Notes under the pieces: model-generated
Told to the model about the DNA's origin: nothing
Seen by the model: the letters and a program-made list of their open reading frames with translations, nothing else
Databases searched by the model: none
In this document: positions 12,524 to 19,285 of the stretch, one piece after another
Layout of the letters: each line of letters starts with the position of its first letter
How positions within the stretch are numbered: the stretch's first letter is position 1
NCBI GenBank assembly: GCA_026390835.1
Contig: JAPLFD010000006.1
Coordinates: forward strand, 1-64,000
DNA: 64,000 bases
Reading direction: 5' to 3'
Source of the DNA: Sphingobacteriales bacterium
Lineage (GTDB): Bacteria; Bacteroidota; Bacteroidia; Sphingobacteriales; Sphingobacteriaceae
Program-made: the position numbers and the translations under genes

Positions 12524-14326
12524 GTGAATAAACCTGAAAATTTTGTGAAATTTGATTACCCTAGAAAACGAATGGACGAAACTAAAATTATAAGCACTGA
12601 AGAATTTGCCAAGGCAACCAAACTAGATAAACTGGGCATGCCTGGCTTGGCTTCGCTATTCATGGAGGTGATGAAGATTAACGAGGTAAACGATACGTTT
12701 AACAAAGTGAGGCACCTAAAAGGTATAGCTTTTATTGATAAACTATTAGAAATTTTAGGAGTTACGGTTGAGTTTGACGAAGAGGATTTGAAAAACTTGC
12801 CCAAAGAAGGAGGCTTTTTAGCCATTGCCAACCACCCGTACGGAGGTATTGAAGGCTTAGTACTTATTAAACTTACCTTATTGGTAAACCCCGATAGCAA
12901 GCAATTATCCAATTTCATATTAACTAAAGTACCTACACTACGCGATTTTTTAATTGCCGTAAACCCCTTTGAAACGATAGATAACCCGGCCAGCATTAGC
13001 GGCATAAAAACAGCCTTGGGCTTATTAAAAAACGGAGTCCCTATTAGCGTTTTTCCGGCGGGTGAAGTATCTACCTATAAATTAAGTAGCCAAAGCATTA
13101 CAGACCGCCAATGGCACCCCGTAGTTGCCAAGTTGGCTATTAAGGCAAAAGTACCCGTAGTACCCATATACTTCCATGGAAATAACAGCTTACTATTCAA
13201 TTTGCTGAGCTTTATACACCCCATGTTACGTACGGCTAAATTACCCTCAGAAATGTTTAACAAGCAGGGACACGTACTAAAACTACGCATAGGCAAACCT
13301 ATAAAAATAGAAGACACCCCGTACGCCAACAACCCCACTAAGCTGCTCGATTATTTACGGGCACGCACCTATGCCTTAGGAGCTGGTTTAGAAGAACACA
13401 AAAAACTATTTTCGGCCAAAAGCTTATTTAAAATTGAGAAAAAACCACAGGATATTGTGGAGGAAATGTCTAGCAAAGTTTTAATGAAAGAAATTGCAGG
13501 CATACAAGATTTAAAAACCTGGACCGAGAAAAACTACGAGGTGTACATTGCACCGAGTACTAAAATTCCGAATATTTTAAAAGAAATAGGGCGTTTACGT
13601 GAAATTACCTTCCGCGAAATAGGCGAAGGCACCAACAAATACACCGATTTAGATGCCTATGATATTTATTACCACCACTTATTTATTTGGGATAATGACG
13701 CTAAAAAATTAGTGGGTGCTTACCGTATTGGCAAAGGAAACGATATTTATTACAGCTACGGCAAAAAAGGCTTCTATACGGCCGAAATATTTAAAATAGA
13801 CGATGGTTTTGCGCCCATCTTAAAAAAGAGCTTAGAATTAGGCCGCTCTTGGATACGCAAAGAATACCAACAAAAGCCCCTACCCCTATTTTTGCTTTGG
13901 AAAGGTATTTTAAAGTTTATTGCCGACAATTCGGAGCACGTAAAATACCTCATTGGGCCGGTGAGTATTAGCAATAGCTTTTCTAAAATCTCTAAAACCT
14001 TAATGGTAGATTATATATTAAAAAACCATTTCGATAAAAATTTGGCCCAATACATTAAGCCACGCAAGAAGTTTAAGTTTGAATTGGATAAAGACGAGAT
14101 GGCACTCTTAGTAGATTCGAGAGAGAGCTTAAAGGATTTAGATCAATTGATTTCAGACATTGAACAATCGAACATGAAAATTCCGGTGCTCCTGCGCCAA
14201 TACTTGGGCTTAAACGGTAAAATTATTTGTTTCAATATCGATCCTAAATTCTCCGACAGTTTAGACGGTTTTCTCATTGTAGATATGGAAAACATCCCGC
14301 TCGATAAAATCGAAAAACTCCAGTAA
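12524..14326 (+). CDS. Bifunctional acyltransferase: N-terminal PlsC/LPLAT domain plus C-terminal GNAT/hemolysin-like (OlsB-type) domain; OlsF-like
   Basis: 600 aa; ANHPYGGIEG and FPAGEVS PlsC motifs, then REITFREIGEGTNKYTDLDAYDIYYHHLFIWDNDAKKLVGAYRIG OlsB-like motif; ATG at 12571 is an alternative start. Confidence 0.85.
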   Translation: MNKPENFVKFDYPRKRMDETKIISTEEFAKATKLDKLGMPGLASLFMEVMKINEVNDTFNKVRHLKGIAFIDKLLEILGVTVEFDEEDLKNLPKEGGFLAIANHPYGGIEGLVLIKLTLLVNPDSKQLSNFILTKVPTLRDFLIAVNPFETIDNPASISGIKTALGLLKNGVPISVFPAGEVSTYKLSSQSITDRQWHPVVAKLAIKAKVPVVPIYFHGNNSLLFNLLSFIHPMLRTAKLPSEMFNKQGHVLKLRIGKPIKIEDTPYANNPTKLLDYLRARTYALGAGLEEHKKLFSAKSLFKIEKKPQDIVEEMSSKVLMKEIAGIQDLKTWTEKNYEVYIAPSTKIPNILKEIGRLREITFREIGEGTNKYTDLDAYDIYYHHLFIWDNDAKKLVGAYRIGKGNDIYYSYGKKGFYTAEIFKIDDGFAPILKKSLELGRSWIRKEYQQKPLPLFLLWKGILKFIADNSEHVKYLIGPVSISNSFSKISKTLMVDYILKNHFDKNLAQYIKPRKKFKFELDKDEMALLVDSRESLKDLDQLISDIEQSNMKIPVLLRQYLGLNGKIICFNIDPKFSDSLDGFLIVDMENIPLDKIEKLQ

Positions 14327-14384: not shown

Positions 14385-15857
14385 TTAGTTTGCCATTACT
14401 TTACCAGGAGTGGTATAGTTTAAAGTGCTTGGATCGTACATGGCCCAACCTGCAGACCAATCTGTAGTTCCGAAAGCACCTCTGAAAGTAACCGTTTTAT
14501 CAAAAAACGTATCGCCTGTAAATTTAGCATCGCTAAATAATGCACCGCTAGCGGCTGCACCAGCAGCTACTGCAGTAAAGTTTGGTGTAGCTGCACCTGT
14601 TGCTACAAACTCTGCTCCTAAAGCAAAACCTGAAGTTAATAAGGCACTAACAGTAGTAGCTACAAAGCTGTTATCAGCAAGTAAACCTGCTTCAAATACT
14701 AATTTGCTAGTAGCATCTTTACCTTTAATTTGACCGTTGTTTGGTGCAGTAGTTGCATTGAATTTGGTATTGCAACCGTAAATTAAGTTGTTTTTTATAA
14801 CCATTGTACCTGCAGTATAGTTTGCTGATGCACTTCCGTTACTATCGTCAATGTAAATACCTTCAGTATAGTTTCCTAAGATAGAGTTGAATAAACTCTG
14901 AGCTGAGTTACGACGGATTTGCGCAGCATGTTGGAAATTGGCATTGTTATTACTGGCAGATAAAGATGATGATAATGGACCAATAATGGTTACGTTAGAA
15001 AAAATTGCACTGGTTTTAGGACTATTAGATGATCCTGTTGCATCGTTATCTGATTCAAAACCGTTAGAACCAGAAACATCAGCAATTTCTTTTACACGTT
15101 GTGCCAAGGCAAATTGTACTTTACCTGAGTAGCCAAAATCAGTATCAAAATCATCGTCCCAAGTACCAATAGCTAGTAAGTATTTTGCATTTACAGTACC
15201 ACCAAACCATTCGAAGGCATCATCGCCAGCACGGTAAACTTGGATATATTCTAAAGTAGTACCAGAACCAACACCACCCAATGTTAAAGAGTTAATTTCG
15301 TTGTTAGTTACAAAAGGTACACCAGCATACTCTATACGTACATATTTCATAGTACCTGAGTTATCGGCAGCATCTGTACCACCATAGGTAGTATATGTTG
15401 CAGCAGAACCACCAGCAGTTGGCAATAAACCACCTTCAATAACTACTGTTCCACCTGTTGGGTTAACTGGAGCTTTACCTAAAATGATAATGCCACCCCA
15501 ATCACCTTGAGTACGAGAACCAGCAGGAAAGTTAGAAGTAAATACAATTGGATTAGTGGCTGTACCAATTGCACTAATTTTAGCACCACGAGTAATAATT
15601 AAAGAACCTTTAGAGATTTTGTCGCCTTTAATGATAGTACCTGGCTGAATGGTTAAGGTTGCGTTGTTGGTAACATACACAAAGCCTTTTAATAAATAAA
15701 TTTTGTCTGCAGACCACGTGGTATTTGCAGAGATATCTCCACTAACTTCAACAACATTACTTGTTGGAGTAACAATGGGATCATCAGTTTTACTTTTTTT
15801 ACAAGCCGCGACAAAAGTAATCGCTAGGATTGAAAACAGGATAATGGTTTTTTTCAT
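14385..15857 (-). CDS. Lipoprotein with right-handed beta-helix-like repeats, partner of TonB receptor
   Basis: 490 aa, signal ending FVAACKKS (lipobox), repetitive beta-helix-like sequence (LTIQPGTIIKGDKISKGSLIITRGAKISAIGTATNPIVFTSN). Confidence 0.75.
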   Translation of the reverse strand: MKKTIILFSILAITFVAACKKSKTDDPIVTPTSNVVEVSGDISANTTWSADKIYLLKGFVYVTNNATLTIQPGTIIKGDKISKGSLIITRGAKISAIGTATNPIVFTSNFPAGSRTQGDWGGIIILGKAPVNPTGGTVVIEGGLLPTAGGSAATYTTYGGTDAADNSGTMKYVRIEYAGVPFVTNNEINSLTLGGVGSGTTLEYIQVYRAGDDAFEWFGGTVNAKYLLAIGTWDDDFDTDFGYSGKVQFALAQRVKEIADVSGSNGFESDNDATGSSNSPKTSAIFSNVTIIGPLSSSLSASNNNANFQHAAQIRRNSAQSLFNSILGNYTEGIYIDDSNGSASANYTAGTMVIKNNLIYGCNTKFNATTAPNNGQIKGKDATSKLVFEAGLLADNSFVATTVSALLTSGFALGAEFVATGAATPNFTAVAAGAAASGALFSDAKFTGDTFFDKTVTFRGAFGTTDWSAGWAMYDPSTLNYTTPGKVMAN

Positions 15858-15947
15858 GGTTTTTTTGATTATTTTTTTTTGTAAAAATGGACGTTTAATG
15901 TAAGGTGTATTTAAATGAATTGTTATGAAATTGTTAAGTATGTAAAT

Positions 15948-18743
15948 TTAAAATGAATAATTAAAGGATAAAGACACATTGGTTCCGAATTTGGTTTTAG
16001 AAATTTCATCGTCAACAAATTGGGTGTATTTTTTATTGTTATTGCGGTCGAAATAAAATACATTCTGCTGGTTGAATATATCGCCTACATTCAATTTAAA
16101 CTCTCCTTTGGTTTTAAAGGTTTTTACCCCAATCTGAAAATCTAACACATCGCGGGGGTGTTCCCAAACGTTTGGAAATGTAGTGCCACCTACGCGGAAA
16201 ATACGACGACCCACTCGGTTGTATAAGAGATTGAAATTGAGCTTATTGTTTAAGGTACTGTGTTGCAAGCCGGCATTAACTACATAAGGCGATTGTCCAA
16301 TTAATGGGCGCCCTGCACTATTTGGATTTTGGTCGCCTGCAAAATTTACCTCGGAGTGAATGATAGAAACATTGGTGTAAAATGTAGTACGTTCAAAAAA
16401 TGCTCTATCGGATAAGAATTTTAAATTTTTTCTGAATTCAAGTTCAAATCCATAAGTAGTTGCTTTTTCGGCATTGCTGTACGAAATATCTGGTGTAGAG
16501 TTTACATCGTAAAAAGTAGCTTCGATAGCGTTGGTAAATTTTTTATAAAATGCCGATATCGAAAATATTTGTCCTGCAGCTGGATAGGTTTCGAAGCGTA
16601 AATCGGCATTTAAAATTTGGGTGCGTTTTAAATTTGGATTTCCTTTTTGCACCGCTGATTGTTCGTAATCGAAATAGGCAAATGGTGCTAATTCTCTAAA
16701 CTCGGGGCGGGCAACAGTTTGATAAACCGAAGCTCTTAAATTGCTTTTTTCGGTTAAGCCCAAAGTAAGGTTAAGCGATGGAAGAAGATCCAATTGATTG
16801 CGTTTCACCGTTGGTTCAAGGGGATCAAATGTTTCGAGTGCTAGGTTAAATTGCTCGGCACGTAGGCCCCAAACTACACGCAGTTTTTCAGCCAATTGAT
16901 TATCGAGCATAAAATACCCTGCATTAACCATCGAATTTGAGGTATAACGATCGGCACTGTTACCAATTTCGTCTAATTGGTATATGCCTTGATTGATTAA
17001 ATCGTTTCCAAAAACGGTACCCAATGAACGCTGACGTATGGCATTGGCGTTGGGGTCAAATGGATTCAATATTAAACCAATGAAACGTACATCAAAATTA
17101 CGGTTTCGGTAAATGGAACTGAAACCCGTTTTAAAACTTCCCTTATTGGCTTTTGTAGATAATGGGAAACTTAAGTTTACTTCGCCGTTAAAAATATCTT
17201 CGGTTAAATTGGAGAATAAACGACTATTAGTTCTATCTAAAGAGGTAATGTTAGCTGAATAATTTACATTCGGGTTGTTAATATCTGCTTGGTTTTTGAT
17301 ATAACTAATTTTACGTTGATCGGGTTGATTATTTATTACGTTGCTATAACCCAGTGCCCATTTTAATTTGGTTTTAGATTCGCCAAATTTATGCTCCCCT
17401 TCTAAAGATGATTTAAGTAAGGTTTTTTGTATTAAATCGAATGCAAAAAACTTGGTTGCATTGGATTGGCCGAAATTTAAACCCGAACGGCTCAAATATT
17501 GATCGTCTTGGATGCGGTTGTAGATGTTTTTTAAAGTGATTTTATTGTTGCCAAATAAATAGGAGAAATTGGCTAAACCGCCCACCGTAGTAGAAAATTT
17601 ATAGGTTTCATCTTTAAAATCAAATTCACCAGCTAAATTTCTAGAAATTTCTGGGTTTACATTTTGTGCATTTCGGTACGAAAGGGAAATAATAGCACCT
17701 AAACGGTTGCCGCTTTTTTCATAATCTTTAACTCTACCTACCGTAAATTGGTAATTTTGGCCTAAAAAAGCAGTAGAATTAAAAACAGCATAGTCGGTAT
17801 TAAGCGAACGTATGGCGGCTATTTCTTGGGTAGGGCTTAACGTATTGTTGTAAATACTACTAGTACTCGGAAAATTTACCGGTAAATTTCTGGTAGTGTT
17901 GAAACCAAAATAGTCGGCAGCTGTTTTTTCATTACCCTTAAAATCTTTAAAAGTAGATTGTGAATTGTAGCTGTATCCCACTCCGTAGTTTAAGAAGTTT
18001 TGATCAGGAATATCTTTAGTTAAGATCTGAACGGCTCCACCGGCAAAATCTCCAGACATATCTGGCGTAGCGGTTTTGCTAATTACAATATTATCAATCA
18101 TGTTCGATGGAACAATATCGAAAGAGAAAGCTTTACGGTTTGGCTCAGAACTTGGCAAGGCGCCATTATCTAATGTAGCAGAGTTATAGCGATCGCTCAA
18201 ACCACGTACAATTACAAACTTATTATCTTGAATAGTAGCACCGCTCACACGTTTTAACACATCGGCTGTGTTTTTGTCGGGCGATTTTTTAATAGATTCG
18301 GCAGAAACACCATCGGAAATACGAGAACTATTTTTTTGCTGTGCATACAAGGTATTGGTACTTTCTTGTTTAGCAGAAGCAGTAATAACTACCTCTTTTA
18401 AGTTTTGTGTAAGGGCTTCATCCATCACAATATCTAAGGTGGTTGTTTTACCAGTTAGTACCTCAATATCTGTAATTTGTTTGGTTTGATAACCTATATA
18501 AGAAAAAAGCAAGGTGTATTTTCCTGGCTTAAGTCCGGCTAATACGTATTGGCCATTTACATTGGTAGAAACTCCAGAAGTGGTTCCAGAAATTTTAACC
18601 GATAAACCGATTAGCGTCTCACCTGTTTTTTTGTCGGTAATTTTTCCGAAAATTTTACCAGATTCTTGCGCTTTAACTTGAATTGCACTTGCTACCATCA
18701 CGATAGCTAGCATACATACACTTTTAAATAATTTTAATTTCAC
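15948..18743 (-). CDS. TonB-dependent receptor with N-terminal carboxypeptidase-like regulatory domain
   Basis: 931 aa, GKIFGKITDKKTGETLIGLSVKI, plug domain NTADVLKRVSGATIQDNKFVIVRGLSDRYNSATLDNG, barrel to C-terminal F; GTG start. Confidence 0.95.
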   Translation of the reverse strand: MKLKLFKSVCMLAIVMVASAIQVKAQESGKIFGKITDKKTGETLIGLSVKISGTTSGVSTNVNGQYVLAGLKPGKYTLLFSYIGYQTKQITDIEVLTGKTTTLDIVMDEALTQNLKEVVITASAKQESTNTLYAQQKNSSRISDGVSAESIKKSPDKNTADVLKRVSGATIQDNKFVIVRGLSDRYNSATLDNGALPSSEPNRKAFSFDIVPSNMIDNIVISKTATPDMSGDFAGGAVQILTKDIPDQNFLNYGVGYSYNSQSTFKDFKGNEKTAADYFGFNTTRNLPVNFPSTSSIYNNTLSPTQEIAAIRSLNTDYAVFNSTAFLGQNYQFTVGRVKDYEKSGNRLGAIISLSYRNAQNVNPEISRNLAGEFDFKDETYKFSTTVGGLANFSYLFGNNKITLKNIYNRIQDDQYLSRSGLNFGQSNATKFFAFDLIQKTLLKSSLEGEHKFGESKTKLKWALGYSNVINNQPDQRKISYIKNQADINNPNVNYSANITSLDRTNSRLFSNLTEDIFNGEVNLSFPLSTKANKGSFKTGFSSIYRNRNFDVRFIGLILNPFDPNANAIRQRSLGTVFGNDLINQGIYQLDEIGNSADRYTSNSMVNAGYFMLDNQLAEKLRVVWGLRAEQFNLALETFDPLEPTVKRNQLDLLPSLNLTLGLTEKSNLRASVYQTVARPEFRELAPFAYFDYEQSAVQKGNPNLKRTQILNADLRFETYPAAGQIFSISAFYKKFTNAIEATFYDVNSTPDISYSNAEKATTYGFELEFRKNLKFLSDRAFFERTTFYTNVSIIHSEVNFAGDQNPNSAGRPLIGQSPYVVNAGLQHSTLNNKLNFNLLYNRVGRRIFRVGGTTFPNVWEHPRDVLDFQIGVKTFKTKGEFKLNVGDIFNQQNVFYFDRNNNKKYTQFVDDEISKTKFGTNVSLSFNYSF

Positions 18744-18764: not shown

Positions 18765-18772
18765 CAAACCTA
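18765..18772 (-). promoter_or_regulatory. -7 promoter element of TonB receptor gene
   Basis: Minus strand TAGGTTTG matches TAnnTTTG, 22 nt upstream of the GTG start. Confidence 0.65.
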
Positions 18773-18782
18773 CCTGCATAGT

Positions 18783-18820
18783 GTTAGCCCCGAGTTAGTT
18801 TAATGTTAAGGAAAAGTTAA
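18783..18820 (-). promoter_or_regulatory. Candidate PhoB/OmpR-family operator: four direct repeats with 11-bp period
   Basis: GTTAG 18783, GTTAG 18794, GTTAA 18805, GTTAA 18816 (minus strand TTAAC/CTAAC), 10 bp upstream of the -7 element. Confidence 0.65.
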
Positions 18821-18916: not shown

Positions 18917-19285
18917 ATGAAAAAACCAGAGACAAAAAATACCAAGAAAACACCCAAGCAAGATTTATTCGAAAAACTATCCACTAAATTACATCAGGCC
19001 ATAAAAAGTTTAGGTGTAGATTCTGTTTTACTGAGCAAAAAAATCGAAAAATCAGCTAAAAAATTAGCTAAGAGTGTTTTGAAGAAAAAAACAGTAACTG
19101 TCAAAAAAGTAAACAAGCCACTTGTTTCTAGCGTAACCATTAAAAAAACCATTCAAACAAAACCATTAAAAACCGCTACAACTGCTAGTCCAGCAAAACC
19201 AAAGGTTAGCGCATCGAAGCCTAAGGTTAGTGCATCAAAGCCTAAAACAAGCCCCAAAACAACAACTACGAAGAAAACTTCTTAA
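18917..19285 (+). CDS. Lysine-rich histone H1-like protein
   Basis: 122 aa with 34 Lys; C-terminal KPKVSAS-KPKVSAS-KPKTSPK tail. Confidence 0.75.
   Translation: MKKPETKNTKKTPKQDLFEKLSTKLHQAIKSLGVDSVLLSKKIEKSAKKLAKSVLKKKTVTVKKVNKPLVSSVTIKKTIQTKPLKTATTASPAKPKVSASKPKVSASKPKTSPKTTTTKKTS

Follow-up and report, generated by a model that had tools for sequence, protein, structure and literature searches.

The 64,000-nucleotide stretch of Sphingobacteriaceae DNA analysed here (the window) carries, upstream of a TonB-dependent receptor gene, an array of short tandem repeats that is very probably a Pho box, in which four YTAAC half-sites form an operator for PhoB and PhoB would serve as activator of a Bacteroidota promoter devoid of a -33 element. 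An earlier note on this DNA had proposed a Pho box and a PhoB-type regulator from the repeats; that reading is supported by the conservation of the repeat register in related genomes, by the phosphate genes that stand behind similar boxes, and by the box in the promoter of the PhoB orthologue itself.

The repeat array and its core promoter

On the plus strand the array consists of GTTAG (18783-18787), GTTAG (18794-18798), GTTAA (18805-18809) and GTTAA (18816-18820), whose starts lie 11 bp apart, exactly as first described. On the minus strand, from which the receptor is transcribed, the box (18783..18820) presents the half-sites TTAAC (18820-18816), TTAAC (18809-18805), CTAAC (18798-18794) and CTAAC (18787-18783), followed by a 10-nt spacer (18773..18782) and a predicted -7 element (18765..18772). 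The strand thus reads TTAACTTTTCCTTAACATTAAACTAACTCGGGGCTAAC, then ACTATGCAGG, then TAGGTTTG, or, unit by unit, TTAACTTTTCC TTAACATTAAA CTAACTCGGGG CTAAC, ACTATGCAGG (10 nt) and TAGGTTTG. The last of these matches TAnnTTTG, the -7 consensus of Bacteroidota (PMC9723704), and inspection of the sequence at the -33 position upstream of it revealed no TTTG, bearing out the promoter layout first proposed. Pho boxes are defined as 11-nt direct repeats (review PMC4415409), and tandem direct repeats of this period are what the array contains; a fixed distance from the core promoter, with the box in place of the distal element, is found as well, being 10 nt at the receptor and DUF47 promoters of the family, which share this spacer length, and 21 nt at phoB, with the -7 box predicted in each case.

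The array is genuine and lies well outside what chance would produce. Even with three mismatches allowed, 0.18 occurrences of the four-unit YTAAC pattern are expected in a window, whose only exact match is this one; the exact three-unit pattern has a single occurrence in the organism's own genome (1.46 Mb, 87.6% complete). A matrix built solely from relatives gives the site a score of 21.4; no other independent site in the window exceeds 6.9, and the mean maximum of 30 simulated windows is 3.4. That the repeats arose by chance, or form an A/T-rich structural feature of the promoter that no dedicated regulator recognizes, might be argued from the shortness and A/T-richness of the units and from the one simulated window of the 30 that scored 18.2, but an ungapped register kept among diverged orthologues and an approximately tenfold enrichment over a reversed control (both described below) make this so improbable as to be almost negligible. 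A three-unit match with one mismatch elsewhere (G000:C10:79695, L141) was dropped for its low matrix score.

Conservation before the receptor and its partner lipoprotein

The receptor (931 aa, GTG start; 15948..18743, minus strand) was recognized by Pfam and NCBIfam matches and by its orthologues, and is the predicted PhoB target. Each of the 60 genomes searched contains relatives of it, and orthologues of full length are spread over many genera of the family. When the receptor promoters are lined up by their -7 box, no gaps are needed. Over the 90 nt before that box, 91 of 105 BTAAY words in 21 non-redundant promoters (receptor protein identity down to about 39%) occupy a single 11-bp register ending 10 nt before the -7 box, as against a mean of 2.0 and a maximum of 7 after shuffling, a count to be read with the relatedness of the sequences and the anchoring of the alignment on the -7 match in mind. 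Five positions of the register are well filled (14, 14, 19, 20 and 20 of the 21 promoters); one more, which lies between the second and the third, is seldom occupied (4 of 21). Across these promoters the units are kept and the spacers between them diverge widely. The earlier note had made its reading depend on conservation of the repeats in related genomes, and both units and register are indeed kept in receptor orthologues across the family. In two receptor promoters from other families (L035 and L036) the units lie one or two turns further upstream.

Downstream of the receptor lies the gene of a partner lipoprotein (490 aa; 14385..15857, minus strand), a position conserved in most relatives examined, and the two genes, separated by a 90-bp gap, are probably co-transcribed from the receptor promoter. 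Two degenerate units, TTAAC and ATAAC, with a period of 11 (15922..15937, minus strand; GTTAT at 15922 and GTTAA at 15933 on the plus strand), precede the lipoprotein gene. Of the earlier suggestion that weaker units lie here, the units themselves stand, being present and conserved in the closest relative, but they are accompanied by no in-register -7 box in the window's own copy, which is therefore more likely transcribed from the receptor promoter. Several relatives have both in-register units and a -7 box before the lipoprotein (e.g. L019, L020, L024, L025, L027, L029, L030 and L033).

Two neighbouring genes deserve mention. Beside the lipoprotein lies an OlsF-like ornithine-lipid synthase gene (window 12524-14326), whose family match is below cut-off and before which no box was seen; when phosphate is scarce, lipids that contain no phosphorus are often produced. 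A 122-aa lysine-rich, histone-like protein is encoded on the other strand between the receptor and ppk1 (window 18917-19285), and its gene starts no more than about 100 bp from the Pho box.

The structural model of the lipoprotein shows a beta-rich fold with moderate confidence, and a fold search with it returned weak matches only, mostly to parallel beta-helix proteins; a search of PDB sequences with the lipoprotein profile gave no match. The weak beta-helix matches agree, at the level of fold only, with the pectin-lyase-like lipoproteins described for Flavobacterium johnsoniae (PMC8115612). Those lipoproteins are reported there to be induced by phosphate depletion and to be related to a phosphate-starvation lipoprotein of Caulobacter (PMC8115612; PMC2996285).

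Genes behind the box and the candidate regulator

Genome-wide statements rest on pattern searches, each with the reversed pattern as control, for exact matches to the composite YTAAY-N6-YTAAC-N10-TAnnTTTG. Fourteen genomes gave 22 matches against 2 for the control, and 101 Sphingobacteriaceae genomes gave 183 against 17, with at least one match in 90 of them, although these are related genomes and close sequences inflate some counts. The window's own genome contains only two exact matches, one before the receptor and the other before a DUF47-PiT operon. Searches allowing one mismatch yielded no excess over control within the genus, and only exact matches are therefore counted as evidence. In 142 genomes outside the family there were about 12 matches against about 8 reversed, without clear enrichment; the claim is accordingly confined to the family, of which the exact composite is a feature, and is not extended to the phylum.

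We examined 101 composite matches in detail: in 30 the gene behind the box is a DUF47 gene and in 14 it matches the receptor (weakly in three of the 14), proportions biased against these two main classes because non-typical matches were chosen on purpose. Other genes preceded by the composite in family genomes include pstS, glpT (TIGR00712, above cut-off), and those for PI-PLC, an alkaline-phosphatase/GDPD protein, GDPD, a DNA/RNA non-specific endonuclease, a type I phosphodiesterase and a metallophosphoesterase. Among the pst loci of relatives, L131 and L135 have boxes obeying the N10 rule upstream of pst, L230 has five consecutive units, and L130 and L132 have in-register units without a perfect TAnnTTTG; by the same criterion L133 and L134 have no box. 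The prediction that pst and phosphatase promoters should carry boxes thus holds for most pst operons examined and for alkaline phosphatase/GDPD genes, and extends to DUF47-PiT, glpT, phospholipase and nuclease genes, placing the box before genes of phosphate acquisition, as expected of a Pho box. The earlier note had also taken the adjacent ppk1 and ppx genes of the window as fitting PhoB control; no box precedes either gene, and the argument was set aside.

About 12 unclassified composite matches lie directly before ECF sigma-factor genes. In the six of these loci that were extended, all from relatives (L224, L225, L226, L227, L228 and L229), the ECF gene is followed by a FecR-like gene and then a SusC-like receptor gene, with a SusD-like gene following within the stretch in five of the six and a phosphoesterase-like gene in one, all of these names being a reading of the sequences and not the outcome of a family search. 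The arrangement suggests that PhoB may act through ECF sigma factors on phosphate-utilisation loci of the kind described in F. johnsoniae.

The best PhoB match of the window's own genome (L127:4263-4955, minus strand) scores 232.2 bits against TIGR02154 (cut-off 296.2) and 230.2 against NF053854 (cut-off 270); these are its two best matches, both below cut-off, and the gene is named as PhoB orthologue on best match together with its autoregulatory box. Its promoter carries CTAAT-TTAAC-TTAAT placed 21 nt (10 + 11) before TAGCTTAG. Three units followed by N21 and TAnnTTnG occur 19 times in 14 genomes, against 0 for the reversed pattern, and in 11 of the 14 genomes such a box stands before the PhoB orthologue (orthologues 77 to 100% identical), at the position from which a PhoB would regulate itself. 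It is this boxed promoter that narrows the regulator to the PhoB orthologue. A PDB search with the protein returned OmpR-family regulators without singling out PhoB.

An alternative is that the box serves a different member of the OmpR family, such as the RprY-type regulator encoded near DUF47-PiT, which would control envelope and phosphate genes together. Regulators of this family as a class use tandem direct repeats; in the window's own genome RprXY is encoded about 5 kb away from the DUF47-PiT operon, and three TTAAC units with an 11-bp period (L126:7473-7510, contig C9, plus strand) are found some 50 bp upstream of an rprX-like kinase gene of opposite direction. Neither RprXY nor a further OmpR-family regulator of this genome (on contig C12) has a box in gene orientation, however, whereas the fixed-spacing box recurs before the PhoB orthologue in 11 of the 14 genomes and its targets are phosphate genes, and we consider this alternative unlikely.

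Proposed mechanism, known systems and phosphate sensing

From these patterns we infer PhoB binding, activation and low-phosphate induction, as well as the kind of substrate that the receptor takes up. In phosphate shortage a PhoR-like kinase would phosphorylate PhoB, of which, in the simplest case, two dimers would bind head to tail on one face of the DNA; since a -33 element is missing, initiation by RNA polymerase should depend on PhoB being bound. Phosphorylated PhoB would then activate the genes of the TonB receptor and the partner lipoprotein, for uptake or binding of a phosphorus compound, together with the DUF47-PiT transporter operon and PhoB itself. Activation is preferred to repression because of the promoter geometry. 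PhoB might instead bind as a repressor, or the box might tune a promoter that is active without it: the DUF47-PiT spacing is identical to that of the receptor, and there are PiT genes elsewhere that phosphate starvation represses. Against this stand the missing -33 element, the 10-nt distance between the box and the -7 element, and the recurrence of this layout before pst and phosphatase genes, which are normally induced in low phosphate; we regard repression or tuning as very unlikely.

The Pho box of Escherichia coli takes the place of the -35 element, about 10 bp upstream of the -10 element. Similar core sequences with a period of about 11 bp are found in the Pho boxes of Bacillus subtilis (TTAACA-like) and cyanobacteria (CTTAAC-like), which differ in belonging to other phyla with other core promoters. 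The CTGTCAT repeats bound by E. coli PhoB are, as here, 11-nt tandem direct repeats (PMC4415409), whereas the box described here combines a YTAAC half-site with the TAnnTTTG core promoter of Bacteroidota, has up to six units in one register, and shows a second spacing, N21, at phoB. Within Bacteroidota, PhoB of Bacteroides fragilis controls and binds the pstC promoter, at a site that was not defined (PMC3547664); there PhoB acts at a phosphate transporter promoter, while the window's genus is without detectable PstB. For PhoP of Riemerella anatipestifer, the consulted text reports TTTAACA as the most conserved nucleotides by DAP-seq and a shift of a TonB-receptor promoter in EMSA (PMC9603813). 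The likeness thus comprises the same phylum, a nearly identical core, autoregulation and a bound TonB-receptor promoter, but that protein is presented as a global regulator linked to virulence that binds many genes unrelated to phosphate, its motif is likened by its authors to that of ArcA, and the same text gives no 11-bp register or spacing rule (PMC9603813). According to the main text on F. johnsoniae, phosphate depletion strongly induces TonB receptors and beta-helix-like lipoproteins there, and the set resembles ours in containing such receptors with such lipoproteins, FecR-like regulators, nucleases and PlcP-type enzymes; it differs in that phoBR adjoins the receptor there, which is not so here, and that main text describes no operator (PMC8115612).

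A search of the open-access literature found no Pho box with a spacing rule for Sphingobacteriaceae or Bacteroidota, the nearest being the Riemerella motif (PMC9603813). The rule proposed here, in which YTAAC units repeat every 11 bp and the last of them is separated by 10 or 21 nt from TAnnTTnG, is simple and searchable and allows the phosphate regulon of Sphingobacteriaceae genomes to be predicted; it would give a phosphorus role to an otherwise unlabelled pair of TonB receptor and lipoprotein, and would link PhoB to ECF-sigma/FecR/SusCD loci.

It also raises the question of how phosphate is sensed in lineages without Pst and PhoU. Genomes of the window's own genus (estimated 88 to 99% complete) contain no PstB above cut-off and no PhoU match. 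Of the 28 DUF47 loci of the family with enough flanking sequence, 27 have a PnpS/PhoR-like kinase gene immediately upstream of DUF47-PiT (the exception being L076), and this position, before a boxed operon of PhoU-like DUF47 and PiT, leads us to suggest, tentatively, that this small-genome lineage might run a Pho regulon without detectable PstB and PhoU, with DUF47-PiT perhaps replacing Pst-PhoU as the sensor that restrains PhoR. A lone PstS-like lipoprotein gene of the same genome as the window (L001:1393-2295, contig C17; 35 bits, far below cut-off), with no other pst genes in its stretch, adjoins a TonB-like gene.
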